Assembly (NCBI GenBank): GCA_030789695.1 | Contig: CM061138.1 | Span: 179,839,051 to 179,903,050, forward strand | DNA: 64,000 bases | Direction: 5' to 3' | Source of the DNA: Scilla litardierei | Lineage: Eukaryota > Streptophyta > Magnoliopsida > Asparagales > Asparagaceae | Shown: positions 10,662 to 55,762 of the stretch, one piece after another | How positions within the stretch are numbered: the first letter of the stretch is position 1 | Layout of the letters: every line of letters begins with the position of its first letter | The notes under the pieces: model-generated | Database searches by the model: none | What the model saw: only the letters and a program-made list of their open reading frames with translations | Told to the model about the DNA's origin: nothing | Program-made: the position numbers and the translations under genes

Positions 10662-11607
10662 GTGGACTCTCCCAGAGACTCCTGGTGCCACATGACCCTC
10701 AAAAGATTAATGAATTTCATCCTCAACATTTTTTGCCTCGATCCAAGATGGCCATCGGTTGCTGCTCGTAGGTCATGTCTGGATGCACCTCGACTTCTGA
10801 GAAATCCACAACGTGACTGGGATCTCCTACGTATCTTCTGAGCTGGGACACATGGAACACATCATGAATACATTCGAGTGACGGAGGTAACACCAGCCGA
10901 TAAGCCACTTCACCAACACATGCTGAGATCTCGAAGGGGCAATATATCTGGGGCACAATTTTCCCTATCGGCCAAAACGTATAGTACCCCGCGTATGTGA
11001 AACCTTCAAAAATACGAAATCACCTGGCTGGAACTCCAAAGGACGTCACTTAGTATCTGTCCAATGTTTGTAGCGGTCTTGAGTAACACGGAGATTTTCA
11101 CGAACCATTCGTACCACCTCGACCGCTTCTACCACCATGTCGGGTCTCAGAAGTTCACGATCCCCAATGTCATTCCAGCTTAGGGGTGATCGACAGTTTC
11201 TCATAAACAAAGTGCAAATGGTGCCATACCAATGCTTGCCTGATAGCTGTTGTTGTAAGCAAATTCTACCAAGTGCAAGTGATCTTCCCAAGATCCCTTA
11301 AACTCTGGCATGCAAGCCCTCAACATGTCTTCTAGAATTTGCATGGTGTGCTCAGATTACCCATCTGTCTGGGGATGATACGTAGTACTGAAGCTGAGAT
11401 GAGTTTCCAGACTGGCTTGTAAGCTCCGCCAAAAGTGAGACGTAAATCTGGTGTCCCTATCAGAAACTATACATACAGTGACACCATGAAGTCTCACGAT
11501 CTCCTCCATATACCTTCAGGCCAAAATTTCTGTAGACTGACCCACCTGAAAAGGGATGAAATGTGCTGATTTGGTTAATCGATCAACAATCACCCAAATC
11601 ACATCAT
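10662..11607 (-). pseudogene. Element T: integrase core, integrase C-terminus and most of the chromodomain
   Basis: Read from 11607 down, this continues the integrase interrupted at 57492 by Athila-B: DVIWVIVDRLTKSAHFIPF, then the region with [19 protein letters not shown] and HLVEFAYNNSYQ. It then runs through the GEVAYRLVLPPSL and HDVFHVSQLRRY motifs into a chromodomain (PMAILDRGKK, LLRVMWHQESLGEST), cut at 10657 by Copia-A. In-frame stops (for example after YHPQTDG and near 11046) and a frameshift at the A-run near 10727 show it is dead. The gypsy order and CR-type chromodomain point to Tekay/Del chromoviruses. Confidence 0.88.
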
Positions 11608-11968
11608 TGGTCGGCCCCGGATATACACCCGGAAAACAATTGTAGTTTTACCGCAAGCGCACGTTGTAATGGCGAGCGGGTATCGAACATAGGGAGGACA
11701 ATTGACAGTACTCTATCTTGATCACCTAGCTATGGATGGTAGAATAGAATGGTTTGGATAATAATGGTGTCACAGTCGTTCAAATAACAAATAGAATTCA
11801 ATATAATAAAAGCATCTAGGGATAGGGAATCCCCACTATGGATCGTCACTTATCCTTATGGATCATGAATCTTAATGTTGCAAGACTTGAATTTAGGTGA
11901 ACTAGTCGCAACTGAATGTAGAACCAAGCTCACGCTCTCTCGCTATTGTCGGTCTATAGCAACCTAAA

Positions 11969-12266
11969 TTAGGGCCCACTCTCGTGCAAACCCTAACCTA
12001 AGCCACTAGCATGAAGATCGACATCATCATCCGATCGCACCTCGAGCCCACTCTCGTGCAAACTCGAGCTATAATCTAGGTTATGATAGTTTGTATTCGT
12101 CCAATCTCTTGCAAACGAATATTAGTATAGATTTATAATAAAAATCCTAGTTTTGGTCCAATCTCTTGCAAACCAAATCTAGAGAATCTCGATTATAAAC
12201 CCAAATCGACTATCTAGGCCTTCCCATCAATTGGAATCCAATCTCTTGCAAATCCCAATCGATGGA
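11969..12266 (-). repeat. Five-hairpin array with a conserved loop, Athila-B 3' LTR
   Basis: Sense strand is minus. Five copies of the loop TTGCAAGAGATTGG or TTGCACGAGAGTGG are each flanked by a different inverted repeat, read on the minus strand from high to low coordinate: GATTGG-type, TTTGGT/ACCAAA, ATTCGT/ACGAAT, CTCGAGT/GCTCGAG and TTAGGGT/GCCCTAA. Some closing pairs are T-G, which pair only as RNA. See the Athila-A copy at 18906-19205. Confidence 0.85.
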
Positions 12267-12693
12267 AATTCCTAGCTATTCGTAATAAATCAAACACAAC
12301 CTAACCTTTTATCAATCATAGCAACAATTCAATTCATTCATCACAATTCAAAGATCGGATCCATAGGGTTCATCCCTATGCCCTAGAACGACGAAACTAC
12401 TCACAATTCATCATAGAAATCTCAGAACCAAAGAAATAGATCAAAGCACAATTCATAGCTAAGAGAGAACAATTCATAAAAATAAGAGTTTTAAAGAGAA
12501 AGATCAAACCAAATTGCGCGTTTATAATCTCCAGCTGAGAATTACAATAGGAATAGCCGTCAAAAATAACTTCAAGTCTCTCCTAACACTAGGAATAAAC
12601 TAGGTTTAAATACAAGCCAAAATCGTCTAGAAATTCCTGACAGAATTGCCCCTGGCGCAGCTAAAAACCCTAATTCGTGACCCAGTCAGAATG

Positions 12694-13025
12694 CGTCACT
12701 CGGCCGAGTGACAGACCCAATAAAAAACAGAGAATCTGGGAAAATTAGGGGTCTGTCGCTCTGTCGGACTCGGACGAGTGGTCTTCTTCACTCGACCGAG
12801 TGAGCTTTCTTGCTCGGCCGAGTGGGTCTTCTCAAATTTCCAGTAAGTCGGCTGTTTTTTGGGAGAAAATCCCTGTCAGACTCGGGCGAGTGGGCTTCTC
12901 CATTCGGCCGAGTGAACTTCCTTGCTCGGCCGAGTGAAGTTTGAAAATCGGTAGTCTGTATCCATTTCACTCGGTCGAACGCACTCCTTCACTCGGCCAA
13001 GTGAACACTCTGGTCGACCGAGTGA
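12694..13025 (-). repeat. ACTCGGCCGAGT palindrome array, Athila-B 3' LTR
   Basis: About ten copies, perfect or with one or two changes (CTCGGACGAGT, CTCGGGCGAGT), mostly 21-23 bp apart within groups. Compared with the 5' LTR (56858-57181), one unit near 12700 is missing. Confidence 0.85.
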
Positions 13026-13469
13026 GCTGTTTCTGGGCTCTTTTCTTCTCCTTCTAGCCGCCTCGTCGATTCCATCGAACTTCTTCTTCTTCCGTGTTGA
13101 GTATTGATTCCCCGGATTTGGTTTTGATGATGAGCAAACATAAATATCGTGAACTAACACTGTGTGAGCGCAGTTATGGAGATCGTCGCCAAAAGTCTAC
13201 GTATATCAAAAGCGACGTCTCAAGACTTCTCAAAGCACGTGATCGTGTGCCTGAAGCTTCGTTGAAGCTCTAGGAGCATTATTGAAGTCAAGAGATTCGG
13301 ATTGAAGCTTTGAAGACGGTTCGTCAAGTTTATTTTATTGTCTTCTAGTTTCTTTCCGTAGAATGTTAAGCCTTGAGTAGGTCTTACATTATTAGAGCTA
13401 GGATTATCATAGAAGCCCATAGAAACTTTTTCGAAGCCTTACGCTTCATTTTGCGGTTTCTAGAGCATC

Positions 13470-14001
13470 TTAGTTGGTTCAAGAAGGAGAACCAACCGAC
13501 TAGATGGTAATCTAGACGGTCGGCAATCCTTCGTGAACCGACTAGAATGCCTTGTTCAAATTCAGCTCTTTACTGTTTACAGTTAGTCGGTCCAAGAAGG
13601 TTCATCGACCGACTAGTTGTTAAACTAGTCGGTTTGGAATCCTTCTTAGACCGACTAGTTGTGTGTTCAGTTTTTCAGCCTGAGCTACTGTTTATCATTA
13701 GTCGGTCTAAGAACAATAGTCGACCGACTAGTTGAGAAACTAGTCGGTTGGAATTTGTTCTCAGACCGACTAGTGCTGCTTGATTTCAGCCTATCATGTT
13801 TCAACTCTTAGTCGGTAAAAGAACACTCACCGACCGACTAGTTGTGAAACTAGTCGGTTGGCAAGTCTTCTTAGACCGACTAGTTCTAGTTCTTCTGAAC
13901 TATCTTTATTGGCTGTCATCCTCTTAGTCGGTTCATGTTGAATCATCGACCGACTAGTTGATAAACTAGTCGGTCAGTGATCATTCTTTGACCGACTAGT
14001 C
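13470..14001 (+). repeat. Five 110-116-bp units of alternating TAGTCGGT and ACCGACTA half-sites (Copia-B 5' LTR)
   Basis: Units begin at about 13470, 13583, 13698, 13808 and 13924. Each has four half-sites in alternating orientation. In unit 2 the GTCGGT/ACCGAC cores start at 13586, 13608, 13628 and 13650, spacings of 22, 20 and 22 bp, then a gap of about 50 bp to the next unit. Neighbouring half-sites make nested inverted repeats such as ACCGACTAGTTG...AACTAGTCGGT. The 3' LTR (about 33402-33933) and both Copia-C LTRs have the same array. Confidence 0.88.
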
Positions 14002-14446: not shown

Positions 14447-16186
14447 TGGTGGGCTCCGAAAAGGTGCTCTCTCTCAAGCGCAAGAGTCCGTACAAGTAGT
14501 AAAATCTGGGAGTCCAGATGTCGAATCCACGGGAAGAAATCTGTTGCAACCACAATTCAAATCAAATAGAAAGCCTACGAAAAGAAACTAACCACTTCAA
14601 TGATGATGGCGATGACAGTGATGTGAATACGTGAACAATATAAACAAGGAAATTCGTGTCTGAAAATATCTATAAAAAGTATGCACATGGTATGGGTTCG
14701 TTAGGATCAATGATTCGTATTAACTTGGTTGACGGATATAACACAATGAATTCTCCTTTTGGGAGCAATTCACCGGAAAATACCCAATATAACTCAATGA
14801 ATTCTCCTTTTGGAGCAATTCATCGGAAGATGCCCTTTTGGGGGTTCAAACACTATATTCAATAAGATCGTCGCTAAAGTTATAATACGATATGAAACTC
14901 TCTTTTGGAGAGATCAAAACTACGATATGAAACTCCCTTTTGGGGAGATCAAAACTCACCCTTTTGGGGCGATCATCGACTCAATCACTTCTTTTGGAAG
15001 ATGAAAAAGACGATTTACGAACAAAGATTACAACTTTAACGACGTTTAACGATTTAGCACAAGGAATACAACCAAATAAACACAAATAATATCCCCTAAC
15101 TACTCCACACCATGCACAAATAAGTTTTAGCTACTCATAATATCAGAATAAACAAGTTTCATAGCCAAATACATCAACCTAATAGCAAAATACGATAAAA
15201 AAGCTTCAAATACGGGATAGAAGTTTAGAATTCATCACCAAATCTCCAAGATATACAGCAAAACTCTCTGGAAAAAATAAACATAGCCTCTGGAATTTTA
15301 CAGAATTTTGTGGTGGCGAAATACGGCTTCTAGAGCCTCCAATACGCTCAAAATACGCCAAAATCTGCTTGTATACGCCCAAAAAACCCTAGGAATACCT
15401 TATATAGAGGCATTGCGGGTTTGGGAAGCTTATTGGGTTCGAAAACCGCACCCGCTTCACGCTCAAACCCGCTCCGCAAAGCTCCGCGAATCCTCGCCGT
15501 CGGATGTTTGCGGGATTGAATCTCGGAACGACACGTGGGCTTTGAAATTCGCGCGCGCCCGCTCCGCTAACAACTCCGAGATCGCATCGGGGAAACGTCT
15601 CCGCCGTTGGATGACGATCGGACCGCTGATATTGAGCCACGTCGCCCAACATTTCCGCTGCTGCTTCGTTCAAGCGGGGTGAGCGAGCGCCGTTGGATTT
15701 CGATCGGGCGGCTGAGAGTGTCCCACGTCGCCCGCTAATTTCCCGCGCTCGTGGACCGTCGGATCACGATCCGACGAGCGATAGAAGGCCACGTCGCCCG
15801 CTATTCAGCTGTCGTCGGATGAGGCGGGAGACCCTGAGATGCGGCCACGTGTCCTTTAAGATTCGTGCGGCGACCGTATTTTCGTATTTTCGTGCGTATT
15901 TCTCCATTTAAATGGTATTCTGCATTCAAAAATTCATAGTAATTAGCACAGATCTCAGAAAAATACAAATAAATAGTCGTTGGAATCGTGAGATCGAGAC
16001 CAAGCTAGGAAAAATATAAAAAGTGCAGAAATGCGTCGTTAAATACTGTTTTATGCTCAAATAGTGTGTTTTCTCTAATAAATAAATGTGTAGAAAATAC
16101 GTATGAATTAGAGAACAATGTAGCATCACATGAGCACAAAATAGGGCTAAATGGGGGGTTAAATATGTAATATTGAACCCGAATCA
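14447..16186 (-). mobile_element. Solo LTR of a Tat-like gypsy element (1,740 bp)
   Basis: Ends on the plus strand are TGGTGGGCTC...CCCGAATCA, so the minus strand reads TGATTCGGG...GAGCCCACCA. A perfect 5-bp duplication AGTTT flanks it (14442-14446 and 16187-16191), and the Copia-B LTR continues across it. There is no internal region or second LTR, so the two LTRs of a former element recombined. Minus orientation is inferred from a CCGTGGATTCGAC-like motif near its inner end, typical of Athila/Tat LTRs near R/U5; the lineage is less certain than the structure. It contains the CTTTTGG hairpin series and a GC-rich stretch (about 15430-15870). Confidence 0.85.
14748..15003 (-). repeat. Seven short hairpins sharing a TTTT(G) loop, in the solo LTR
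   Basis: Plus-strand stems around TTTT or TTTTG are CTCC/GGAG at 14753 and 14804 (each extended by GAATT/AATTC), CCC/GGG at 14833, CTCTC/GAGAG at 14898, CTCCC/GGGAG at 14933, CCC/GGG at 14959 and CTTC/GAAG at 14988. The loop is constant and the stems differ while remaining complementary, as in the Athila hairpins. Confidence 0.75.
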
Positions 16187-16599: not shown

Positions 16600-17744
16600 A
16601 TGACAAACAACGACTACAACGTCTTCAAGAATCGCGAAGGAGCTTCTTCGGTGATGGAAGGACACTCCTCAACTAGGCCTCCTTTCTTCAACGGTACCAA
16701 CTATGGGTACTAGAAATGCCGGATGGAAACGTTCCTCTGGAGCACTTCACTATGGAGAGCCACGATGACGGAGTATGTCGAGCCCATCGAACAAGATTTC
16801 GCGAAGTGGACTACCGCGGAGGTCGTCGCGGAGGTAAACAATGCCAAGGCCATGAATGCCTTGAAATGTGCGTTGGAGCCCGAAGACTTCAACAAGATAT
16901 GCACATGTAAGAGTACATATCAAATCTGGAACTCCCTCCTCATCTTGCATGAAGGAACGAGTACGGTAAAAGACTCTAAACTCGCTGTTGTTAATAAAGA
17001 TTTCAAATTATTTCATATGCAACAGGGTGAGAAGATGAAGGAGTACTATGCTCGCTTCGTCGACATCACCAACGAGTTGGAGGCTCTTGGAAAAAATTAC
17101 ACCCAAAAGGAGAAAGTCTCAAAGATCATTGACGGACTTCCTTCTTGTTGGGAAAAGCGTACCTTCGCCATCGAGGAAGGTAATAATATGAGTAAGTATA
17201 CCGTCATTCAACTAATAGGTACCTTGATGTCTTATGAGGTACGCAAGGATAGCAAGATAAAGATGCAGGAAAAGATGAAGTCATACTTGGAGTAAGACGT
17301 GCCCAAGAAAAAGGCGATTGCATACAAGGCCACTCCATCTTCATCTACATCTACCGATGATGAAGAATCAGAAGACGAGTTGGACATAGAAGCTTTGGCC
17401 GATTTGGCAAAGAAGTTCGACTAATTCTTCCGAAAAGGTAAGTTTAAGAATTTATCTAAATCTAGTTCGACTAATGCCTCCGCTCCTGTGTGTTATAAAT
17501 GCAACAAGCCAGGACACATCAAGCCGGATTGTCCTCTCAACAAACATAAGGAGAAGTGGAAGGCACCCAAATATGACAAGTCGAGAAAGTACAAGAAGGG
17601 GTACAAGAAAGGGCTTGTCGGCTCATTCACCGACTCCGAGGAGGACTCCTCAAGTGGAGAGTCGGATGATGGACAAGTGGAGAAAGCACACATGTGCTTC
17701 ATGGGAAGAGAAGAACATGATTAAGAGACTTCCTCCGATGAAAG
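16600..17744 (+). pseudogene. Copia-B gag, N-terminal part (stops; cut by Athila-A)
   Basis: It starts MTNNDYNVFKNREG, nearly the same as the Copia-C gag. It contains the UBN2-type gag region (ALEPEDFNKICTCKS, KMKEYYARFVDI), a basic linker and the zinc knuckle CYKCNKPGHIKPDC (about 17490-17531). There is no frameshift, but four in-frame stops: 16711-16713, 17293-17295, 17422-17424 and 17722-17724. Compared with Copia-C they fit transitions (TGG to TAG, CAA to TAA, CGA to TAA by two steps), as expected from decay of methylated DNA. The frame resumes after Athila-A at 30641. Confidence 0.9.
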
Positions 17745-18036
17745 TGATCACTCCATATTTTACACCTTTTTTCTACATGATTGCATGCCATTTAGATCGC
17801 TCAAATCACGCTTTTCGCGATTTATCGACAATATTGCGATACTTTTCACGATTTGTTGTTTTTGTCGTATTTCAGGAGATTTGGAGCGATTTGGAGTGAT
17901 CCCGAGATACACCTACTCTAGAGTGTCACCGATGACTTCCCCGAGGGGTATTTTGTTATTAGAGAGGAGCGGAAGAAGAAGGAACGTCGTAGGAGCGACG
18001 AGGAGGCAAAAACAAGCTGTTTGGGCATTTTTTATG

Positions 18037-18425
18037 TCTCACTCGGCCGAGTGAAGGAGTCACTCGGCCGACCAGCGAGACCCCGCTCGGTCGACCAGAT
18101 CGGGCATGCTTCATTTGTGCACTCGGCCGAGCATCAGAAGCCACATCGGCCGAGTGACGAAACCCCGTCCGCCCGAGTGGCACTCAGACGAAGCCCATCA
18201 AAAAGAGCCAACTTACTGTTTTTTGTCTGCCTGAGCATCAGAAGACCCACTCGGCTGAGTGGAAATTGCCGACCGCCCGAGTGAATAGAAGCCATCGACC
18301 GAGTGACGACAACTCACTCGGCCGAGCGACGCCCAAAGTGAAGACCCCCAAGACCCCAGACTTACTGGAAATTCTCAGGGTTTCTCACTCGGCCGAGCGA
18401 CTTTTGTCACTCGGCCGAGTGAGCC
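18037..18425 (+). repeat. ACTCGGCCGAGT palindrome array, Athila-A 5' LTR
   Basis: A dozen or so copies, perfect (TCACTCGGCCGAGTGA) or with one or two changes. CGGCCG-type cores start at 18044, 18065, 18088, 18124, 18147 and 18170: spacings of 21, 23, 36, 23 and 23 bp. The array lies upstream of the probable TATA box and recurs in the 3' LTR (about 29100-29490). Confidence 0.88.
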
Positions 18426-18505
18426 GCGCTGCCTGTAGCGTAAATTACGATTTTCAGGCTGCGCAGGGGCATTTTGGTCACGGATTTTTGGGCTGTTTTG
18501 GGGGG

Positions 18506-18512
18506 TATTTAA
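18506..18512 (+). promoter_or_regulatory. Probable TATA box, Athila-A 5' LTR
   Basis: TATTTAA in GGGGTATTTAACCCC lies about 80 bp after the last palindrome and is conserved in the 3' LTR and, as TATTTAAA, in Athila-B (56765-56772, minus). If it is the promoter, the hairpin array lies in the transcript leader. Confidence 0.55.
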
Positions 18513-18905
18513 CCCCAGTTTTTAACCTAGGTTAGAGGGCTTTTTTTCTTGGTTTTTTGCAGCTTTTTAGATTAAACTTTTTAGCTTTTGATTCTTGTGA
18601 TTGGAGAGGAGAGAAAAGTTTATTTTTGTTGGATTCTTGGAGAACTCTATTGGTTTATCTCCCTCTTCATTAAAAATCTCATTTTTATTGCTTATTTGAA
18701 TATTGCCATGAATTCTATTGTTATTTCAATTGATTATTTTTGCAATTGTGATATGAATTGTGAGTAGTCCTAACGTCTTGGGGCGTGGGGATGAACCCTA
18801 CGAGCCCAATTTCCGATTTGTGATGATTTGGTAGAAATATTGCTAGAATTGCTATTAGGGTTAGTTTGGGATCGATTTACTACGGATAGCTAGGTGTTCA
18901 TATCG

Positions 18906-19205
18906 ATTGGGATTTGCAAGAGATTGGATCCCAATTTGATAGGAAACCCTAGAAATCCAAATTGGGTTGAAATTGAGTTTCTGTTGTATCGGTTTGCAAG
19001 AGATTGGACCGATACTAGGGTTCTCGGTCGCAATTCCATACCGATACTCGTTTGCAAGAGATTGGACGGGTGGGAACTATCCCAACCTAGGTCGTGGCCC
19101 GAGTTTGCACGAGAGTGGGCTCGAGACGCGATTGAACGATGATGTTGATCCTAATGCTAGCTTGCTTAGGCTAGGGTTTGCAAGAGATTGGACACAAACC
19201 TAGGG
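18906..19205 (+). repeat. Five-hairpin array with an invariant 14-nt loop, Athila-A 5' LTR
   Basis: H1: ATTGGGAT (18906-18913), loop TTGCAAGAGATTGG, ATCCCAAT (18928-18935). H2: GTATCGGT (18986-18993), same loop, ACCGATAC (19008-19015). H3: TACTCGT (19045-19051), same loop, ACGGGTG (19066-19072), seven pairs with two T-G. H4: CGAGT (19100-19104), loop TTGCACGAGAGTGG, GCTCG (19119-19123). H5: GGGT (19174-19177), same loop as H1, ACAC here and ACCC in the 3' LTR. Five different stems enclose one loop. It recurs at about 29971-30275. Confidence 0.88.
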
Positions 19206-19576
19206 TAGCTATAGACCGGCAACAGCGCGAGAGTGTGAGCTAGGTTTTACATTCAGTTGCAACTAGTTCATCCGAAATTCTACCCTAGCAATTGTGATAC
19301 CAATGAATCACATTGACGAGATACGGTGAGTAGCGGGGATTCCCCATTCCCTAGGCGTCTTTATTTGATTTTATATCTCCATACTTTGTCTGACGATTGT
19401 GACAGGATCGCCAAAAGGCAAATTCCCTCTTTTCTGTTCATATAGCCAGGTTGTTCGGAGCAGGCACTGTCATACGTCCTCCCTGTGTTCGATAACCCGC
19501 TCGCCGCTACACCGTGCGCTTGCGGTAAAACTACACGGTCGCCCTTTTGGGTTACATTTTGGAGCGATCAAGTTTT

Positions 19577-19594
19577 TGGCGCCGTTGCCGGGGA
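19577..19594 (+). other. Athila-A primer-binding site (tRNA-Asp)
   Basis: TGGCGCCGTTGCCGGGGA lies 6 nt after the LTR and is complementary to the 3' end of plant tRNA-Asp as I know it. Confidence 0.85.
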
Positions 19595-19735
19595 GGCCAT
19601 TTTGACGGTGTTCGGCATCGACCACCCGGTTATTTTTCTTTCTTTCTTTACTTTCTTCTATATCTTGTTCTAACTCTGTTTGCAGCCCTATTTGCATACT
19701 CTCCCCGTATTTTGCATAAGATCTTAACAGGTAGG

Positions 19736-20757
19736 ATGGAGGATGCAATGTCGACAATGGAACTCAGTCAGGGAGATTATGACTCCTTCACAGACCTCCT
19801 TAAGGAGCTTGTCGATGAGGTCCACGCCACAGGAGCATTTGCTATCGATATCAAGGACCCCGACGAACAACTGTTTGCTAGTTTTGTGATGGATCAAGTC
19901 TCCCCGGATGGGACTATCGGGGGCAATGTCAGAGTTGATGTGATAGACGACAAGTTATATTTCTAAGACGGTAGAACAAGTGTCGAAGAGCACTATACTC
20001 CCGAAGAATCTTTCGAGCAAACCAATGTTCAGGGAGTTACACTCTATGACACTCACTCTTGCTTTTATGAATCGTCTGATGTGTTTCTTGATTCCAGGAA
20101 CGAACCGGAGCAGAGTGAAGGTTTTGATGATGCTAGCACAGAATCGGAGAGCGCCTATTTCGATGCATCGTCCTCACTAAGTAGTGAGTCTGAGTCTTTG
20201 CATGGGAGCACGCCACCTGAACATGAGCTAAACTCGGATGACAAGGAAGAAGCCAAACTCATGCGAGCTGATGAAGTAGAAGGAGCGGCACCTCTTGAGG
20301 TAGAACTTAAACAATTACCACCGAATCTAAGGTATGCCTTTTTGGGTAGTAAATTAACTTTTCCGGTGATAGTTAACTCCCACCTCACGCATGATCAACT
20401 TGAGAGACTCCTAGACGTTCTTAGGAGCCACAAAGATGTCCTTGGCTACACTATCTCCGATCTAAAAGGGATAAGCCCTAGGCTTTGCACACATAGGATC
20501 CATCTGGAGGATACCGACGCCACCTCCATAGAGCCTCAAAGGCGGTTAAACCCGAACATGAAAGAGTTGGTTAAAAAGGAAATCCTAAAATTGCTTGACG
20601 CCAGTATTATTTATCCTATCTCTGACAGTAGATGGGTTAGCCCCGTTCACGTCGTCCCCAAGAAAGGGGGGATGACAGTTATAAAAATGATAAAGGAGAG
20701 CCCATTTCTACACGCACCGTCACGGGATGGCGAATGTGCATTGATTATAGGAAACTA
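19736..20757 (+). pseudogene. Athila-A: N-terminal part of the pol reading frame (broken)
   Basis: From ATG 19736 (MEDAMSTMELSQGDYDSF) the frame runs to an in-frame TAA at 19964-19966 and then continues through an acidic, serine-rich linker into the start of reverse transcriptase (SDSRWVSPVHVVPKKGGM at about 20620-20680). A one-base loss in the A-run after GGMTVIK (near 20683-20690) shifts the frame, and a further stop (TAA near 20771) follows in the shifted frame before the long ORF. There is no gag capsid domain, zinc knuckle or protease motif in or before it. The 76 residues before the first stop are not recognised; they may be the start of a rearranged gag or a linker. Confidence 0.75.
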
Positions 20758-20787
20758 AATAAAGCTACCTAAAAGGACCATTACCCA

Positions 20788-23613
20788 TTGCCCTTCATTG
20801 ATCAAATGCTTGAACGCCTAGCTAAACATAAATACTTTTGTTATCTAGATGGGTATTCGGGATTCTTCCAAATACCTTTGCACGAAGATGACCAAGAAAA
20901 GACCACTTTTACTTGTCCCTATGGTACCTATGCCTACCGTAGGATGCCGTTTGGTCTTTGTAATGCTCTCGCCACCTTTCAGAGGTGTATGACATCCATA
21001 TTTTCCGATTACATTGAAAATATTATGGAAGTTTTTATGGATGATTTTTCGGTTTATGGAAGTGAGTTTGACTCTTGTTTGGCCAATCTTACTAAAGTCC
21101 TTAAAAGGTGCCAACAAAACAATCTCACTCTAAATTGGGAGAAGTGTCACTTCATGGTCACGGAAGGTATAGTTCTCGGGCACCTTGTCTCCTCGAGAGG
21201 AATTGAGGTAGATAAAGCAAAGATTGAGGTAATCGAGAAACTCCCTCCTCCTATTAATGTCAAGGGCATTAGAGGCTTTCTTGGTCATGCGGGGTTTTAC
21301 CGCCGCTTCATCAAGGATTTCGCCTCGATTGCCCGACCGCTTACTTCCTTGCTCGCTAAAAATACTCCTTTTATTTTTTCAGGGGAATGCTTGCAAGCCT
21401 TCAATACCTTGAAGGAAGCACTAGTTTCCGCGCCCATCATACAACCACCGGATTGGAGCCTTCCCTTTGAGCTAATGTGTGATGCTAGCGACCAAGCCAT
21501 TGGAGCGGTATTGGGACAAAGGAAAGATAGGAAGCTTCATGCGATATTCTATGCGAGCAAGACATTGGATGACACGCAGAAAAACTATACAACTACCGAA
21601 AAAGAGCTTCTAGCGGTCGTCTATTCCATCGAGAAGTTTCGCTCCTACCTCCTTGGTTCCAAGGTGATTGTCCACACCGACCATGCGGCGTTGAAGTATC
21701 TTTTAAACAAGAAGGAGACCAAACCTCGGTTAATTAGGTGGATACTCTTGTTGCAAGAATTCGATTTGGAGATCAGAGACAAGAAAGGTACGGACAATGT
21801 CGTGGCAGATCATTTGTCTAGGCTTATTCGTGACAAGGAGGATGAGAGTTTACCTATCGACGACACATTCGTGGATGAGAGGCTATACGCCATAAGGCCC
21901 GGAGAAGTACCTTGGTACGCGGACTTCGTCAACTACTTGGCTTGTGGAATTAAACCGCATGGGATGCCCACGCATCAAAAGAGGAGATTTTTGCATGAGG
22001 TCCGTAGCTATTTTTGGGAAGATCCATACCTCTTCAAGATATGCAAAGATAGTGTTATTCGGAGGTGTGTTTCTAAAGAGGAGGCAACGTCTATCATTTT
22101 GCATTGCCATGGTCTGCCATGCGGGGGACATCATGCCACCTCTAAGACAACCGCTAAGATTTTGCAGAGCGGATTCTTCTGGCCAACAATGTTTAGAGAC
22201 ACCCACGACTTTGTAAAGGGGTGTGATAAATGCCAACGGACCGGGAATATCTCCAAACGCAATGAGATGCCAATGAGGCCCATCCAAGAAATTGAGCTTT
22301 TTGATTGTTGGGGAGTAGACTTCATGGGACCATTTCCGTCGAGCAATGGTAACAAATACATCCTATTGGCTGTTGACTATGTCTCCAAATGGGTGGAAGC
22401 AATCGCTACCCCTACTAATGATGCAAGGGTTGTCTCTAAGTTCTTCAAGCAGAACATCTTCCCACGCTTCGGAGTGCCTCGTACCTTGATAAGCGACGGG
22501 GGGAGCCATTTCATAGAAAACAAGTTTGAAGCCATGCTGAAGAAGTACGGGGTAAACCATAGAGTTGGCATGGCGTATCACCCCCAGACAAGCGGCCAAG
22601 TGGAAGTCTCAAATAGAGAGATCAAGCAAATTCTTGAGAAGACCGTGGATCGATCTAGAAAGGATTGGTCAATGAAGTTAAACGATGATCTATGGGCATA
22701 TCGCACGGCCTTTCGCACTCCCATCGGCACCACACCGTTCCGACTTGTTTATGGGAAAGCTTGCCACTTGCCGGTAGAGTTGGAACACCGCGCGTATTGG
22801 GCCATCAAGACCCTTAATTATGATTACAAAAGTGCGACGGTGAGGCGACTCTTAGATATCAACGAGCTTGATGAGATAAGGAGAGACGCCTACGAGAGCT
22901 CAAGAATTTACAAAGAAAGGACCAAGATTCTCCACGATGCGTGCATAACCGTTACAGACTTCAAAGTAGGAGACAAGGTCTTGCTATATAATTCCCAGTT
23001 CCGACTATTTCCCGGTAAGTTGAGGTCACGTTGGTCCGGACCTTTCACCATCAAGCACATACAACCGGGAGGGGCTTTCGAGTTGGAAAGCAAGGACGGA
23101 GCCACATTCAAAGTAAATGGTCAGAGGCTCAAGCATTATTCCGAGGGAGTCCCGATGAGAGAAATCAATAGAATATATCTACTTAAGGGACGGCCGGATG
23201 ATCTTTCATACCTCCTTGACGAGGTTATTGAGGAGGCGATCCCCCATTCGATCGGCGCTCTATTCAAGGAAGATTTTGAGGAAGGGCCGGACTTGGGCCA
23301 AGAAGAAAAGATGGATCATTCCCCCGATCTCTCCACCGAAGTTGATGAAGGCGACGCTGATGTCGTGAGGATTCGAGAGCTCTGCAAGCTCTCAAAATTG
23401 AAGTCTCCGAAGAAAGCTCCGCCGATACGGAAATCGGTGTCACCGGTGAAGCCAAGGACCGGAGCAAGCACTAGATTGGGGGAGCCACCCCCCAACACTA
23501 CCCGAGACGAGAGATCCCCAAGGGAGAACACGCCGCCGCAACATCCGAATCCAAGCGTTCTCCCCGGAAAATTTGACGGGTGCATCTCATATGCACCCAA
23601 TATCCCGCATTGA
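20788..23613 (+). CDS. Athila-A pol: reverse transcriptase (most), RNase H, integrase; open for 941 codons
   Basis: Reverse transcriptase: [12 protein letters not shown] (about residues 20-31), [10 protein letters not shown] (51-60) and catalytic FMDDFSVYG (83-91). RNase [14 protein letters not shown] (about 229-241), [11 protein letters not shown] and [10 protein letters not shown]. Integrase: zinc region with [11 protein letters not shown] and CDKCQR, then the core with [16 protein letters not shown] and [17 protein letters not shown], and a C-terminal region with [12 protein letters not shown]. The last about 150 residues are a charged, proline-rich tail seen also in the Athila-B remnant. 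There is no internal stop. Alone it cannot be a working polyprotein, since the start of reverse transcriptase is in another frame upstream. The listed start is simply the first ATG in the frame. Confidence 0.9.
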
Positions 23614-24837
23614 ATTGAAAATCAAAGGGGGTCGAGCTCACGACCTTAAACGAGCGCTTGTCGGGAGGCAACCCGACGGTTATCGCTTTATTTTTACTTT
23701 TCCTTTATTTTTGTTTTAGAAATAATTAGTGTTTTGAGTCGTTTGCCCAAAAATTTCGTGATAACAGGTCCTATTTTTCTTTGACAGGAGAGGAGAAAGG
23801 GATATCTATCATTAGGAGGATGAACAAGGTGACGAGGAGCGCTCCAGGAATGCGCTCGATGCTTAGGAGGAAGATGAAATCGACTGGAGGAAGAAAAACA
23901 GAGTTTAGAGCCCAAACAAAGCCAAGCAGCAGAAAACAGGGTTCACTCGGCTGAGTATACTAGTCACTCGGCCGAGCACATAAGGTCATCCGCCCGAGCG
24001 GCTCACGAACGAGGGAAGTCTGCTGTACGCAACTCTCTGTTTCTTTTCTTGATTTCAGTATAATTGACACTCGACCGAGTATATAACTTCACTCGGCCGA
24101 GTGAAACTGATACGCTCCTAGGGCGAGTCTTGCCGAGTAGCTTGAGCCACTCGGCCGAATGGACTTATTCCACTCGGCCGAGGGTGGCAAGGTCACTCGG
24201 CCGAGTCATCAGCGGGAGGGAATTTTCCAAAATATTTCCGTTGCGTTCACTCGGCCGAGCGACTTAGTCACTCGGCCGAGTCGTAACTTTTTCTATAAAA
24301 GGGGGAGCGGGACGACGCGTTTTTCGAAACGAGTTAAAACCCAAAATCGCGTCCGATCGTATTCCCTCGCCCGCTGCCCCCCCCCCCACTCGCCCGACCA
24401 CTCGCCCCACCGCCGCGCTCGGCCGACCACCGCCGGCCGACACCACCTCCGCCTCGCCCGAGTCGCCGCCGGTGACCATCTCGCCGGCCGAGCTCCGGTA
24501 GCTTTATTTCGCCTATTTCCTCCTCTTTTGCGTATTTTTCGACGATCCGTGTATCTAACGAACCCCAAACCCAAATTAAATTCAATTTCTATCTATTATA
24601 CCCCTAACCCACCATATGTTTTGAATATTACACGCTAATCTCTTCGTTTGATGCGCAGGTTATATTGGGAAGCTTAGGGGAGCCCAGGGGAGCTTCCGGG
24701 GATCGTTTTGGGCTACGTGGAGGCGTCATCTTCGCACGCTTCCATTACTTTGCTCTCACGGCGTGTCGCGGTATACTTCTTCCTTTATTTTACGCACGCC
24801 GCATTTTTATTACTTTTGGTGAGCACCCGGGGCCCAC
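23614..24837 (+). other. Athila-A spacer between pol and the extra ORF, with palindromes and a GC-rich leader
   Basis: The spacer begins with a GGTCGAGCTCACGACC-like palindromic stretch and a region conserved in Athila-B (CGCTTGTCGGGAGGCAACCC). It then carries a second ACTCGGCCGAGT array (23944-24290; first cores at 23948, 23969 and 23991, spacing 21 and 22 bp), then a C-rich stretch (24370-24480). In Athila elements the downstream ORF is thought to be reached by splicing or a separate promoter; the array and a TATAAAAG at 24294 would suit a promoter, which is inference. Confidence 0.6.
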
Positions 24838-26832
24838 ATGCCGCCCCAGACACGGCCGCGGTCGAGGAGAGCTTCCGCCAAGCGGAAGCGATCGGATGAG
24901 GCCGGCCCCTCCCACGAGGTGGAGGACTCTCCTCCGCCTACACCACCACACCCCGTTCACCCCGCACAGCCACTCCCTGCCGTCCCACAGCCACCACCAC
25001 CGCCACCGGCTCCACTTATCGGGCCGCTGGGGATTACGTTCCGAGACGACGCACACCGCGTCGTCTTCGAGCGCATTTCCCAGCGCTCGATTGTACCCTC
25101 CAGGTTCGCACACCTTGCAGACCTAGGACGCCTGGGGGTACTTGAGGGGATGCTCACGTTGTATGACAACGTGGGTTGGCGAGATTTCTTCCAGGTGTCG
25201 ACGGACACGTTCGTCCGTCCGACACTTGAGGTGCTTAGTTCTATCGCCCGGACCGACGAGGGATGCTCGTTTAGGTTCATGGACCGAGAGTGCCAGGTCA
25301 CTCTCAGTATGATGAGAGCTTTCTTTTCGTGGCCCGATGTCCCCGGGGCCAACCGTGGTTACGCCCCCACTCACATTCCCCCACCTTCCTTCGATTCCGG
25401 CGCTTTCTGGGCCCGGATCACGGGTCTACCTGCTGCCTTTGACCCTAGTAGGACCAAGTCCTCGGCCATCGTCCACCCTTGCCTCCGCATAGCTCAGCGC
25501 CTTATGGCGACTACCTTTTTAGCGAGATATGAGCCTGGGACGATGTCCACGCCGGAGCTTTATATGCTCTACACGATGACGTGCCCCAGAGCTCTATCTA
25601 GGGAGGGCGACGAGTTGGTCCCCGCCGTCGTGATTGATATCGCGAGCTGGTTTTTGGATCGCATCATCGTATCGGTGGGCGCTCGCTCACCGATATGTTG
25701 CGGCGGTCTGATTACCCTGTTCGCCCTGATGACCGGCGAGGACCTTCCTGCTGACCTGCGACGAGCCCCGGGCCCAACTTCACTGTCCATAGACGTCATG
25801 GCCCGGATGAAGATGCTACGTCCGCACGGTCAGCGGCACTGGGTTTGGTTGCACGGCCCCTACGGTGCGGATTACATGATCCTTCCGAGCCCAGCTCGGA
25901 CACAGATAGCACCAGCACAGGCGGACTGGCTTCCGGCGATGGATCTCCTGATCCCCGCCGCCTACGTGCTTGAGGCCGAGGAGGCTGAGCAGGCTGAGCA
26001 GGCCCATGCTGCACACGCTGCACCCGCTGACCCCGCTGCTCCTGCCGACCCCGTGGCCCCTCAGCAGCCTGATATTTCTGCTGCTCCTGACACCTCTGTC
26101 CACACTTCTGCCGGTGTCGGGAGTACCCTCGCTGAGCCCACCTCCACTACCTCCACGCCCACCACCACTCCCACCACAGCTGGCCCTCTGTCCGTTGAGC
26201 CCGTTTCCTCCGCCCTACCCGAGCGCCCACCAACTATAGTTGAGAGCGGAGAGCCCTCTTTTGCTGCCGTCGTGGAGACCGTGGTTGTCACCTCTGTCTC
26301 CACCGCAGCCGTTTTATCCGAGAGTGTCGTGACGTCTGTTCCCACGTCTGTGTCACCGACCTCTCTGGACGCCTCGTCGCCACTTTTATACTCCACTTCC
26401 GTTGCTGCTGCTTCCACCTCATACCATCCTGTGCCACAGCCTCGCACTGGGGCTAGGCCCACATTTGTGAGCACAGCACCTTTCCTCCACGTGCCTGCTG
26501 AGCCCATCACCTACACCACCCGAGTCCACCAGCCCCGTCCTGCACAGCACAGACAGGTGCGTCCCTCTGCACCACCTCCCCCCGACACTGTACTTCAGAG
26601 CATTCGTGCTCTCGAGGGGGCGGTGAGTGGCCTCAAAGGTGACCTCAGGACCATGTCTGCCACCGTCACCGCTATGGCCAGCCGCTTCGACCTACTACCG
26701 GGCATTCACTATTGCCTCACTCAGATTCTCGACCGGCTTCCTCGCATACCCCCACCCACCCAGCAGGTACCCACACCCACATCTACACACACCCAGCCTG
26801 CTTCCACATCCACACCCACACCCACTCCGTAG
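24838..26832 (+). CDS. Athila-A extra ORF (664 residues), ATHILA ORF-1-like; function unknown
   Basis: The first 25 residues are strongly basic (MPPQTRPRSRRASAKRKRSD), which looks like a nuclear-localisation signal. A proline-rich linker follows. Residues about 62-370 form a globular region: GVLEGMLTLYDNVGWRDFF, CQVTLSMMRAFFSWPD and FLARYEPGTMSTPELYMLY. The rest is a low-complexity tail rich in Ala, Pro, Thr, Ser and Val, with a short predicted helix near 590-640. The position (after integrase, before the 3' LTR) is that of the env-like ORF of Athila, but I see no signal peptide or membrane anchor. The best family match by eye is the ATHILA ORF-1/plant-transposon-protein group. The frame is fully open. 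Athila-B carries a broken copy. Confidence 0.75.
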   Translation: MPPQTRPRSRRASAKRKRSDEAGPSHEVEDSPPPTPPHPVHPAQPLPAVPQPPPPPPAPLIGPLGITFRDDAHRVVFERISQRSIVPSRFAHLADLGRLGVLEGMLTLYDNVGWRDFFQVSTDTFVRPTLEVLSSIARTDEGCSFRFMDRECQVTLSMMRAFFSWPDVPGANRGYAPTHIPPPSFDSGAFWARITGLPAAFDPSRTKSSAIVHPCLRIAQRLMATTFLARYEPGTMSTPELYMLYTMTCPRALSREGDELVPAVVIDIASWFLDRIIVSVGARSPICCGGLITLFALMTGEDLPADLRRAPGPTSLSIDVMARMKMLRPHGQRHWVWLHGPYGADYMILPSPARTQIAPAQADWLPAMDLLIPAAYVLEAEEAEQAEQAHAAHAAPADPAAPADPVAPQQPDISAAPDTSVHTSAGVGSTLAEPTSTTSTPTTTPTTAGPLSVEPVSSALPERPPTIVESGEPSFAAVVETVVVTSVSTAAVLSESVVTSVPTSVSPTSLDASSPLLYSTSVAAASTSYHPVPQPRTGARPTFVSTAPFLHVPAEPITYTTRVHQPRPAQHRQVRPSAPPPPDTVLQSIRALEGAVSGLKGDLRTMSATVTAMASRFDLLPGIHYCLTQILDRLPRIPPPTQQVPTPTSTHTQPASTSTPTPTP

Positions 26833-28810
26833 ACTGTCCCCCAGCCACCACCTCCTCCTCCACCGCCTCAGGACGGAGACGGCGCAGCCCCACCCTCTTA
26901 GGCACCCTTGATGCCATTGATCTTTTTTGCCGCCATGCTACCCGTCTCTGTTGGGTCCTGATGATTTTTGCCCACCCCCCCTCCCCTCACTATTTTTGGG
27001 ACCACATTTTGTTCATATATTTCTATATCATTTTTGGGAGAGAGGGAGAGTTTTTGGTGTCACACTTTTATATCTGATTCACTCCTATATCTGCATGCAT
27101 CATGTCCGCATCATATTTTTCATTTCGTTATTTTTATTTTCTTTTTCCTCATGCATGCATACTCACCTACCCCTCACTTTACACGTCTCTCGGTGTGCCA
27201 CACTTCGCACATTGAGGACACTGTGCACTTTAGCTTGGGGGAGTGAGTTCTCACGTCCTTTTCGATTTTCCACCTTTATTTTTAGTTTTTTCACGCCATT
27301 TTCACTCACTTTTTCTTTTTTTTACCATGCATCACGTTTTTCTTACTTTCTTTGTGTGATGCATTGTATTTAGTTTTATTTTCCCTCTTTATTTCTTTCA
27401 TCTCATGCTAGAGATGACTTTTCTGTGATGATGATGACGTGGAGTTAGCTTTCTCTATATGCATGCTATACTTGTCATGTCTTAGATTTTATTTCTGATA
27501 TCATATGCTGTGATTTTCCTTGCATTTAGAGATAGTAACCCACACTTTTTCAGCATGAAAATGGATGAAATTTTATTATTAGCTGAGTCTGAATATTCAT
27601 ATGTATGCTATCGCAGAAAACACACCAAGATTCACGCATTGAATGCTTATATCTGGAGTACCGTTTTCTTTTCCTATATCACTTCTATTTGCATGATTTG
27701 TACATTTCACTTCAGGATGATTGAATGATGTTAGCTATGATAAATCTGGATTAGTTTTGCTTTTTTTTTGTGATCGAAACTGAGTAGATTAGATTACCCT
27801 GCTGAAGTTGTCGTGCACGTCCTATAGAGTGAACTGAGAGACATATTTATTTCTTTCTCCACATATCTTGAACATCAATTCTCTATTTTAAAATCATTGG
27901 TGAATCTCCCCTTAGCGATTCTAATATATGGCATTTCCCCCGCTATTAATTCCTAGCTCCAAATTTCCCAAAACCAAAAAGAAAAAAGAAAAATTCTTGT
28001 ATATCCTTATTTCTCTTTGATTTGGGATCATTGTGTATATATGCTATTAAAAAAAGGGAAAAAGAGAAAAAGAAAAAGAAAAGAAAAGAAAAGAGAAAAG
28101 AATCTCAATAAACGATCCCATCCCATGTTTCCTCTCTTTCTTCCCTCTTTTTGTTTTTATCTTGGTTACTTTTGGAGCTTCATAAAAATGGGGATGAAAA
28201 TATTGTTTTTTATGCCACCACGCTTATAGATAAGCTTGGGGGAGGAAATCCAATGATGTGTGAGAGAGTGACTACTTGACGGTGCACGACAACCTAGGCT
28301 AAGTAATATTCTATACTCAGTGAGATCGTTTTAGCTTCACGAAATCCAGAAATCTATGCCTAGCACTCATTTCATGAAATCCACACTTTTCTATTCTTTC
28401 TATTCTATTGCGTGATATTCTTATACTCCTCTTAGAAAGCGTTCAATTGAAAAGTGTGTGATCTGCGATATTGTATACCGCTTTAAAAGATTCAGACGAT
28501 GTTAATTCTAAAATTATTCCGTTTTTCATGCTATATCAATATTCGTGGGTTTTCTATTTCTATTTGCACCACTATACTATGATATCGAAATAAAAGTCTT
28601 TGACATGTGTTTTACGTTCGGTGCATGCTATATGATTAAGCAAAACCCACGTCCTGAGAAAAATGATCTAGCAGCTTCCCTCTTCGCTCTCTTCTTTCTT
28701 CTTCGTTTTTCGTTTTTCGTTTTTTTCGTCGTTTTCGTTTTCTGAATCCACCGGGTTCGCCTTTTACTTATCTTCCTCGAGGACGAGTAAGAGGTAAGCT
28801 TGGGGGATTT
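26833..28810 (+). other. Athila-A 3' noncoding region with three AGCTTGGGGG tracts
   Basis: No gene is seen. TAGCTTGGGGGAGTG at about 27231 follows a conserved CATTGAGGACACTGTG motif; AAGCTTGGGGGAGG near 28232 follows the inverted repeat GCTTATAGATAAGC; the third, AAGCTTGGGGGATTT (about 28796-28810), abuts the LTR and is the polypurine tract. A purine-rich AAAAGAAAAG stretch lies at about 28048-28100. Athila-B has the same three tracts. Confidence 0.75.
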
Positions 28811-30635
28811 TGATCACTCCATATTTTACACCTTTTTTCTGCATGATTGCATGCCATTTAGATCGCTCAAATCACGCTTTTCGCGATTTATCGACAATAT
28901 TGCGATACTTTTCACGATTTGTTGTTTTTGTCGTATTTCAGGAGATTTGGAGCGATTTGGAGTGATCCCGAGATACACCTACTCCAGAGTGTCACCGATG
29001 ACTTCCCCGAGGGGTATTTTGCTATTCGAGAGGAGCGGAAGAAGAAGGAACGTCGTAGGAGCGACGAGGAGGCAAAAACAAGCTGTTTGGGCATTTTTGT
29101 GTCTCACTCGACCGAGTGAAGGAGTCACTCGGCCGACCAGCGAGACCCCGCTCGGCCGACCAGATCGGGCACGCTTCATTTGTGCACTCGGCCGAGCATC
29201 AGAATCCACATCGGCCGAGTGACGAAACCCTATCCGCCCGAGTGGCACTCAGACGACGCCCATCAAAAAGAGCCAACTTACTGTTTTTCGTCTGCCTGAG
29301 CATCAGAAGACCCACTCGGCCGAGTGGAAATTGCCGACCGCCCGAGTGAATAGAAGCCATCGGCCGAGTGACGAAAACTCACTCGGCCGAGCGACGCCCG
29401 AAGTGAAGACCCCCAAGACCCCAGACTTACTGGAAATTCTCAGGGTTTCTCACTCGGCCGAGCGACCTTTGTCACTCGGCCGAGTGAGTCGCGCTGCCTA
29501 TAGCGTAAATTGTGATTTTCAGGCTACGCAGGGGCATTTTGGTCACGGATTTTTGGGCAGTTTTGGGGGGTATTTAACCCCAGTTTTTAACCTAGGTTAG
29601 AGGGCTTTTTTTCTTGGCTTTTTGCAGCTTTTTAGATTAAACTTTTTAGCTTTTGATTCTTGTGATTGGAGAGGAGAGAAAAGTTTATTTTTGTTGGATT
29701 CTTGGAGAACTCTATTGGTTTGTCTCCCTCTTCATTAAAAATCTCATTTTTATTGCTTATTTGAATATTGCCATGAATTCTATTGTTATTTCAATTGATT
29801 ATTTTTGCAATTGTGATATGAATTGTGAGTAGTCCTAACGTCTTGGGGCTTGGGGATGAACCCTACGAGCCCAATTTCTGATTTGTGATGATTTGGTAGA
29901 AATATTGCTAGAATTGCTATTAGGGTTAGTTTGGGATCGATTTACTACGGATAGCTAGGTGTTCATATCGATTGGGATTTGCAAGAGATTGGATCCCAAT
30001 TTGATAGGAAACCCTAGAAATCCGAATTGGGTTGAAATTGAGTTTCCGTAGTATCGGTTTACAAGAGATTGGACCGATACTAGGGTTCTCGGTCGCAATT
30101 CCATACCGATACTCGTTTGCAAGAGATTGGACGGGTAGGAACTATCCCAACCTAGGTCGTGGCCCGAGTTTGCACGAGAGTGGGCTCGAGACGCGATTGA
30201 ACGATGATGTTGATCCTAATGCTAGCTTGCCTAGGCTAGGGTTTGCAAGAGATTGGACCCAAACCTAGGGTAGCTATAGACCGGCAACAGCGCGAGAGCG
30301 TGAGCTAGGTTTTACATTCAGTTGCAACTAGTTCATCCGAAATTCTACCCTAGCAATTGTGATACCAATGAATCACATTGACGAGATACGGTGAGTAGCG
30401 GGGATTCCCCATTCCTTAGGCGTCTTTATTTGATTTTATATCTCCATACTTTGTCTGACGATTGTGACAGGATCGCCAAAAGGCAAATTCCCTCTTTTCT
30501 GTTCCTATAGCCAGGTTGTTCGGAGCAGGCACTGTCATACGTCCTCCCTGTGTTCGATAACCCGCTCGCCGCTACACCGTGCGCTTGCGGTAAAACTACA
30601 CGGTCGCCCTTTTGGGTTACATTTTGGAGCGATCA
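28811..30635 (+). repeat. Athila-A 3' LTR (1,825 bp)
   Basis: Starts TGATCACTCC and ends GGAGCGATCA; followed by GAAAG. It keeps the palindromes, TATTTAA and five hairpins. H5 pairs better here (GGGT/ACCC) than in the 5' copy, and H3 has an extra Watson-Crick pair (ACGGGTA). Confidence 0.95.
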
Positions 30636-30640
30636 GAAAG

Positions 30641-53195: not shown

Positions 53196-54311
53196 TTAGA
53201 AGATTGGCCCCCCTTCGAGGCCGTCATCGTGCTTGGCTTTGATGGAAAATGGCATGGCGTCATCAATCACCTCGTCGAGGAGGTCTACATTATCCACATC
53301 TTCTCGCCAAGGCATATGCTTCATCGCCTTTGGAATATGGAGCTCGACTTCAATATTGCCGACGTTTAAGGACAAGATCCCTTCCCTCACATCAACAATC
53401 ACGCCGGCGGTGGCCAAGAAGGGGCGTCCAAGAATCAACGACGTATCGCCCTCCTCCTTAATATCCATCACCACAAAGTTGCACGGTAAGCAAATTCCGC
53501 CCGGTACTTGAAGTGGTATGTCTTCTGCAATCCCTACCGGCCTAGTGATCCGACCGTCTGCGAGTTGTATCTTCATGTCTGTCGCCTTTAGGTCGGTCCC
53601 CGTATTCAATTTCTTACACATTGTGAGAGGCATGAGGCTCACACTTGCTCCCAAATCTACCAAAGCCTTTTGAAGTGGGACTCCTCCAAGCGTGCAAGGA
53701 ATTCGGAAACTACCGGGATCTTTGAACTTTGTCGGCGCTTTCTCCTTCTGAGTAAACCACGAACCTTGCTTGGCGAGCATGATCCTTTCCTTTCGCTTCT
53801 TTCCCGCAATCAAATCTTTTAGAAACTTAGCATATGACGGGATTTCGACAAGTGCATCCAAGAATGGAATATTCAAGCTCACACCTCGTAAATACTCCAG
53901 AAATTTGGCGAGCCGCTTCTCAATCTTTGCCTTTGCCAATCGTTGTGGGAAGGGTACCAGTGGCATATAAGTGCGCTCCTTTTGTGGCTTATCAATTTCC
54001 GATTTTTCACCATCATTTGACTCTTTTGGGCCCTCCTCTTCATTGACCGGCTCCTTATCATCCGAATTTTCTTCCCCCAGCTCCTTAGTTTGAATCATGG
54101 CGGGAGTTGTGTCCTTTTCGCCTCTTGTAGTTACCGCCACAACCGCATTGATGTAGCCGATATTGCTCCGTGGGTTTTGTTCCGGTTGAGCCGGTAATTG
54201 TTGAGTGTTCTTATTGAGCAATGCTTGTTGCTCCGATAATTGTACCACGACGGTGTTGAGGGAGTCTTGTTGGGATGTCAATCTAGCATTTATCTTCTTT
54301 TGTTCGGCCAT
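53196..54311 (-). pseudogene. Athila-B: gag C-terminal linker and aspartic protease
   Basis: A 371-codon open frame. It has a glutamine-rich linker, a gag-type RLAKAKIEKRLAKFLEYL segment, and a retroviral-type aspartic protease with ALVDLGASVSLMPL and TSLILGRPFLATAG. It ends LLDEVIDDAMPFSIKA, which resembles [16 protein letters not shown] late in the Athila-A pol, so the deletion that removed RT to integrase probably ended here. It would process gag; without RT and integrase it cannot support transposition. Confidence 0.88.
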
Positions 54312-55634: not shown

Positions 55635-55744
55635 AGAAAAAGAGAGTCTAGATAGAATTATTAGCATGATAGAGGAATGAAAGAGTGTATAAAAATAAAA
55701 ATAAAAAAGAAATAACTAAGTAAAGAAAATAAAATATCGTCGCC

Positions 55745-55762
55745 TCTCCGGTAACGGCGCCA
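55745..55762 (-). other. Athila-B primer-binding site (tRNA-Asp, two mismatches)
   Basis: On the minus strand TGGCGCCGTTACCGGAGA, against TGGCGCCGTTGCCGGGGA in Athila-A. The offset from the LTR is the same (6 nt). Confidence 0.8.

Follow-up and report, generated by a model that had tools for sequence, protein, structure and literature searches.

Leader hairpins for RNA selection are already known. In murine leukemia virus (MuLV), SL-C and SL-D present the same GACG tetraloop on two hairpins of the dimerisation leader, according to the passages on this leader in PMC5874298. Here we describe an array of five hairpins in a long terminal repeat (LTR) of an Athila-type retrotransposon, element A, in 64,000 nucleotides (nt) of Scilla litardierei DNA (contig CM061138.1, positions 179,839,051 to 179,903,050, forward strand); this whole stretch is called the window below. 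The array resembles the MuLV leader in that several hairpins, putatively in a 5′ leader, repeat one tetraloop. It differs in having five units, in the other tips found in other families and in lying upstream of the primer-binding site (PBS) within the LTR, and it is known from sequence alone.

Other described systems share part of these features. The gag-less copia element BARE2 of barley is packaged in trans and retains dimerisation and packaging signals (passages of PMC3735527 on BARE). As with BARE1 and BARE2, we are dealing with plant LTR elements whose gag-less copies retain a candidate signal; unlike these copia elements ours are Athila, and the BARE passages of that paper contain no hairpin array. 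In the packaging-signal hairpins of RNA viruses, a coat protein binds stem-loops whose single-stranded region holds a short motif (PMC9065705). The Athila units likewise place a tip on a stem-loop for putative recognition, but the proteins would be others and the units are clustered in one leader. Arabidopsis Athila has many non-autonomous lineages and recombination between families (PMC2410132), and the elements described here are similarly mosaic and often non-autonomous; the main text of that paper makes no mention of hairpins, secondary structure or cis-acting sequences. Cis-acting leaders are covered in a review of Ty1 and Ty3 (PMC4974528, in part), and a paper that mentions Athila, LTR and hairpin concerns hairpins for RNAi (PMC10418216). 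An earlier note on this DNA knew of no description of such an array in Athila. In the open-licence literature, covered mostly as titles and abstract starts, we found none of the core sequence, of a packaging signal in Athila, of a GNRA tetraloop in plant LTR retrotransposons or of a hairpin array with family-specific tips, and an array of this size with such tips was not found in print.

Little is known of the way in which plant LTR elements select their own RNA, or of the means by which copies lacking gag are carried along. The array offers a compact candidate that is sharply defined at the sequence level. A single genome contains 199,903 exact cores of its two main forms. Tip and stem have natural variants, and sister families bearing other tips provide built-in controls.

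Five hairpin units share a structured core

Five hairpin units occupy positions 18906-19205 in the 5′ LTR of element A, and the array recurs in three further LTRs of the window (Table 1). Coordinates and stems, including the ACCC arm of H5 in the 3′ LTR, are as the earlier note gave them. That note described an invariant 14-nt loop in each unit; its sequence is indeed almost fixed, but it is not open. When folded singly, H1-H3 form an outer stem closing with a U-G pair, followed by a 5′ bulge of two nt (UG), a CAA/UUG helix of 3 base pairs (bp) and a GAGA loop. The 14 nt are therefore a structured core. GAGA conforms to the GNRA tetraloop pattern; bulged packaging-signal hairpins are known from phages. 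In H4 the core reads CAC-GAGA-GTG, in which both sides of the third inner pair are changed, a compensatory replacement of A-U by C-G.

The 326-nt array is more stable than shuffled sequences (z −3.9, 0/100). Singly, the stability of H3, H4 and H5 is not clearly above shuffles (Table 1); H4 and H5 take other or weaker folds, H4 adopting another register, and good pairing beside the H5 core is seen only in the 3′ LTR copy (ACCC), the 5′ LTR having ACAC. Core matches with up to 3 mismatches number 25 in the window, compared with a shuffle mean of 8.38, and 0/100 shuffles scored as high. A rule-based scan for bulged GNRA hairpins in the last 800 nt up to the PBS gave 3.86 per LTR in the 44 LTRs of c0, the family of the five-unit array, vs 0.05 in shuffles. 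Rfam had no match at any array of the window. A covariance model built from the window units (R1) recovers all 20 of them and matched 79 times in 30 PBS loci. It gave zero matches in 36 array-less PBS loci, which indicates that the families share no hairpin alignable as a whole.

The earlier note also suggested that two RNAs might dimerise through kissing loops at the palindrome TTGCAA. This hexamer is self-complementary and present in most units of types 1, 2, 3 and 5. However, its CAA is paired with UUG inside the hairpin and the third of these pairs covaries; unit 4 carries TTGCAC, which lacks self-complementarity, in no fewer than 41 of the 55 arrays, and 32,129 cores in the genome have this form; and the sister tips CCAAAAG and GGGA are non-palindromic. 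Kissing through TTGCAA is thus very unlikely, and the binding of Gag or a host protein, which that note gave as its alternative, appears to fit these sequences better. Contacts between tetraloops, as in MuLV, are possible.

Pairing is kept while the arms change

All comparative counts come from one genome. The four LTRs of the window supply 20 units, 17 of them distinct. In these, 90.3% of cells are paired compared with at most 49.8% in any slid register, a test in which the structure model is favoured since it was derived from these same units. In all, 55 cells are changed on both sides. Two of five measures (two-sided-change pairs and further pair types) were unexceptional when columns were shuffled (32 and 104 of 500). 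In these units the picture drawn earlier, a fixed apex on stems that keep only their pairing, is borne out.

In 55 distinct five-unit arrays, several pairs occur in two paired states with few or no mismatches. Pair 4 of unit 2 is T-A in 29 arrays, C-G in 26 and unpaired in 0; pairs 4 and 5 of unit 3 and pair 6 of unit 4 behave likewise. Changes were then counted on a tree inferred from the spacer sequences of 65 arrays; rows containing N, duplicate segments and chains that were not complete had been dropped beforehand. For the outer pairs 1-8, six branches carry a double change that keeps the pair. Under the re-pairing null such branches averaged 1.16 and never exceeded 4 in any of 200 re-pairings, and slid registers gave 0-2. 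The same tree has 5 other double changes and 25 single changes that make an outer pair. At the third inner pair there are 5 double and 5 single changes that keep pairing and 1 that breaks it, while two mis-partnered controls gave 0 double changes; copying of cores between units could be the source of some of these inner doubles. Covariation, the check that the earlier note had proposed for its stems, is therefore present in the window units, in the 55 arrays and on the spacer tree.

Over the 65 distinct arrays, 1,908 of 1,950 stem cells are paired (97.8%), with stem lengths (7, 5, 7, 7 and 4) that were picked after the pairing data of the 55 arrays had been viewed. Changes per site amount to 2.14 in the arms, 2.33 in the spacers and 0.99 in the core, the last value being flattered because the arrays were gathered by core pattern (up to 4 mismatches). 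The arms thus change about as fast as the spacers while pairing stays high. Judged from these alignments, the apical core is nearly letter-for-letter fixed and the predicted stems are constrained to pairing alone. A plain tandem repeat was rejected, the arms differing between units with pairing kept.

We also counted the inner pair throughout the genome with the remaining core letters held fixed and both strands summed. There are 84,400 + 83,374 = 167,774 cores with A-U and 16,292 + 15,837 = 32,129 with C-G. The mismatched intermediates number 132 + 115 = 247 (C/U) and 159 + 145 = 304 (A/G), so that either is about 100 times rarer than C-G, the rarer paired state. Reversed-pattern controls gave 0 to 4 per strand. 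Outside this genome, the double-core pattern had 0 matches in viral contigs and 1 in genome contigs, the latter judged a chance match in what is, by its sequence, a bacterial contig. These counts bear on the idea that the array is neutral tandem repetition and its pairing a leftover of its origin. Arrays amplify with the LTR and their copies are non-independent, as such an origin would have it. Given arms that evolve about like spacers under sustained pairing, and intermediates so much rarer than the rarer paired state, we find this explanation scarcely credible.

Strand and position of the array

Changes from Watson-Crick to G-U outnumber those to A-C on internal branches (12 vs 2, p 0.006), on terminal branches (27 vs 15, p 0.044) and overall (39 vs 17, p 0.002). 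Among present-day pairs 1-7 of unit 1, the ratio of G-U to A-C is 57 to 1. This excess favours the sense RNA and moderately supports a structure that acts there. A GNRA scan of the antisense strand carries no strand evidence because the complement of GAGA is not GNRA.

The sequence TGGCGCCGTTGCCGGGGA at 19577, which we take to be the PBS, occurs without mismatch 28,303 times in the genome. Of the 44 c0 PBS loci, 43 contain all five units as a full chain, vs 0 of 46 others. In the 23 loci with exactly five matches (L054 excluded), the distance to the PBS is 635-751 nt from the start of unit 1 and 373-488 nt from that of unit 5. Of the 53 arrays with enough upstream sequence, 50 have a TATWWAW box 360-411 nt ahead of unit 1, so a box like the TATTTAA to which the earlier note pointed recurs across these arrays. 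Because the array lies between this TATA-like box and the PBS, it is probably in the 5′ leader RNA of the element, as that note had supposed.

These data also bear on two other functions. The inverted repeats around a fixed motif could be a DNA element for a transcription factor or for cruciform extrusion, and the U3 of these LTRs is palindrome-rich, so palindromic sites do occur nearby. The excess of G-U over A-C changes, the place of the array downstream of the TATA-like box and the variation of the arms from unit to unit all argue against this, and we regard it as quite unlikely. A leader array might instead control translation by blocking initiation, by shunting or by switching RNA between translation and packaging. 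The leader would be long and structured, and shunting has been reviewed for plant pararetrovirus leaders (PMC5902531, in part). Five near-identical tips are not needed for structure alone, however, and the array is kept in copies without detectable gag. Translation control is therefore improbable, if somewhat less so than a DNA element.

Sister families carry other tips

We clustered 90 PBS loci on their last 900 nt. This gave c0 (44 loci), c1 (27), c2 (6), c3 (5), c4 (2), the pair L111 and L113, and four singletons; c1-c4 are groupings by PBS and LTR sequence rather than classified lineages. These four other families with the same PBS bear predicted hairpins with tips of their own (GGGA, GAGA, GCGA and CCAAAAG), for which the evidence is good in some families and thin in others.

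The c1 tip is CAC-GGGA-GTG or CAT-GGGA-ATG atop a long covarying stem. Its anchor was matched in 21 of 27 loci, and in 16 distinct rows 92.3% of cells are paired vs at most 37.5% when slid. A second GGGA hairpin lies upstream in 22 of the 27 loci. The general GNRA scan found only 0.07 per LTR in c1, because the helices of this family are interrupted. In c2, L108 and L110 have two CCAC-GAGA-GTGG cores spaced by 33 nt, the arms of the second being weak, and the other four loci have one. The c4 loci have two CC-GCGA-GG cores, of which the first sits on a stem of 8 bp and the other is weaker; in a scan for stems sharing a loop, which covered 34 loci and misses bulged GAGA arrays, the c4 tips were not above shuffles (2 in L115, and a shuffle also gave 2).

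Loci of c3 carry five to seven CCAAAAG tips on differing stems, some extending just 2-3 bp beyond the tip. Under the strict shared-loop rule there are 4 such stems in L116 and 2 in each of the other four c3 loci, compared with at most 1 in shuffles (10 each). The antisense strand of three of these loci also gives 2 stems, and a solo LTR in the window (14447-16186) gives 5 for CCAAAAG and 4 for its complement; this tip carries no strand information. A genome-wide count of three successive CCAAAAG tips with fixed spacing gave 3,967, and the reversed control gave 0. These arrays are often found as same-strand pairs about 4.1-4.4 kb apart (e.g. G000:C1:5576388 and 5580785), suggesting short elements with two 1.7-kb LTRs around little beyond gag.

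The tip CAN-GRGA-NUG is common to c0, c1 and c2 despite their different LTRs. This would be expected if the hairpins bind a host protein, such as a factor for RNA export, stability, stress granules or translation. Some retroviral transport elements offer repeated sites to a host export factor. Structured RNA transport elements have also been described in mouse LTR elements (PMC12786077, in part). Against this, c3 and c4 in the same genome have other tips at a similar place, which is unexpected for one host factor. Binding of a host protein is a serious possibility, but we think it rather unlikely.

Gag content and candidate function

Sixteen c0 loci had 1.5 kb of sequence downstream of the PBS; gag was found in 7 and none was detected in 9. 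In gag copies 198 of 210 outer-arm cells are paired and 33 of 35 units have an intact inner stem. Where no gag was detected the arms are paired equally well (260 of 270), and the inner stem is intact in 41 of 45 units. The motif CX2CX4HX4C occurs in gag frames of c3 (2) and c4 (1). It was not seen in those of c0 (5) or c1 (4, one cut short), which end 1.5 kb past the PBS so that a motif beyond could be missed, nor in the gag region of element B, a gag-bearing relative of element A in the window.

We put at about even the chance that the array is a cis-acting leader element providing multiple sites for one ligand, most likely Gag, in RNA packaging or dimerisation. Each unit would present one apical recognition element, composed of the 5′ bulge, CAN/NUG and the GRGA tetraloop, on a stem that needs only to pair as its carrier. 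The repeated units would offer several binding sites to one ligand, most likely Gag of the element itself or of a gag-bearing relative. Bound Gag may then select the element RNA for the particle and perhaps dimerise it. The family-specific tips look like a label by which each family sorts its own RNA. A more tentative and, in our judgment, doubtful extension is that Athila families carry an exchangeable address code in which the tip names the Gag that packages the RNA. Gag without a zinc knuckle, as in the c0 and c1 frames that were read, would go with CAN-GRGA-NUG and Gag with a CCHC knuckle (c3 and c4) with other tips; gag-less parasites would spread by keeping the address.

Several observations weigh against a packaging array read by Gag. 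Copies without gag would keep the array anyway because it sits in the inherited LTR. The gag frames of c3 and c4 are 59-66% identical and their tips differ, an argument against a single tip for each gag type. Six of the 90 PBS loci (L105, L107, L111, L113, L137 and L138) yielded no hairpins of this kind in the scans that were run. When the whole array is folded, the canonical form is seen in H1 and H2 alone. On the spacer tree, 46 single changes break an outer pair vs 63 that keep one (pairs 1-8 of all units, some of which were never paired). The G-U excess leans on unit 1; past the first pair, G-U to A-C in units 2, 3 and 4 is 1:2, 10:9 and 10:6. To these are added the single genome behind the counts and the stem lengths chosen with the data in view.

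A single LTR type is found with three or more kinds of internal region (17745-30635; L031, L035, L036 and L058; L044, L051 and L053). These are a type with gag, one with reverse transcriptase about 1.1 kb past the PBS and no gag domain, and one with an open frame past the PBS that has no Pfam match. In L031 this last frame is 448 amino acids (aa) long, and it also lacks any real match to ATHILA ORF-1.

Layout of the window

Table 1. Positions of the LTRs, hairpin units and related features in the window.
Feature	Position	Strand	Remarks
5′ LTR of element A (Athila-type)	17745-19570	+	1826 bp; TG start, CA end
TATA-like box TATTTAA	18506-18512	+	motif read; putative promoter
H1	18906-18935	+	ATTGGGAT / core 18914-18927 / ATCCCAAT; single-unit fold z −3.2
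H2	18986-19015	+	GTATCGGT / core 18994-19007 / ACCGATAC; single-unit fold z −4.6
H3	19045-19072	+	TACTCGT / core 19052-19065 / ACGGGTG; single-unit fold z −1.6
H4	19100-19123	+	CGAGT / variant core 19105-19118 (CAC-GAGA-GTG), TTGCACGAGAGTGG / GCTCG; z −0.6
H5	19174-19195	+	GGGT / core 19178-19191 / ACAC; z −1.1; ACCC in 3′ LTR
PBS TGGCGCCGTTGCCGGGGA	19577-19594	+	sequence match
3′ LTR of element A	28811-30635	+	same array; cores 29979, 30059, 30117, 30170, 30243
LTR of element B	11607-13094	−	array of five units; cores run from 12251 to 11976
Other LTR of element B	55768-57253	−	array of five units; cores run from 56412 to 56137
gag region of element B	54285-55646	−	several tblastn pieces
Solo LTR of another family	14447-16186	−	AGTTT at both junctions; seven CCAAAAG tips, 14997 down to 14756

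The two LTRs of element A are 97.9% identical, and GAAAG flanks the element on both outer sides (17740-17744 and 30636-30640) as a target duplication. Between the LTRs, RVT_1, RT_RNaseH and rve follow in that order within 20788-23610. The ATHILA ORF-1 domain (PF03078) lies downstream of pol at 24838-26829 (44.5 bits vs a cut-off of 20.2), a position that we take to mark the Athila lineage of Ty3/gypsy. Four gag queries (E 1e-3) had no match in 19570-30635, leaving element A without a detected gag of its own.

The LTRs of element B are 73% identical to those of element A across about 890 nt, and a PBS-like site lies at 55762 on the minus strand. Its gag matches the L037 gag frame at 78% over 268 aa, with further pieces (tblastn). 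Nesting is deep between 11607 and 57253, where element B appears to be split by several other elements including element A and the solo LTR. The solo LTR, which belongs to the same family as the PBS-bearing CCAAAAG loci and has stems of unequal strength, apparently lies within an LTR of a further element.

Upstream parts of the LTRs contain tandem palindromes at 12768-12938 and 56855-57122, ACTCGGCCGAGT in c0, and other palindromes were seen in the c1, c2 and c4 loci examined; both are perhaps enhancer sites. At 13571-13885 and 33402-33815, copies of another repeat contain tandem units of about 110-115 nt with many palindromes of the ACCGACTAGT type. Antisense inside the gag region of element B there is an Rfam match to snoR71 (55000-55106, plus strand; 50.2 bits vs a gathering threshold of 40), which may be chance or a real snoRNA.
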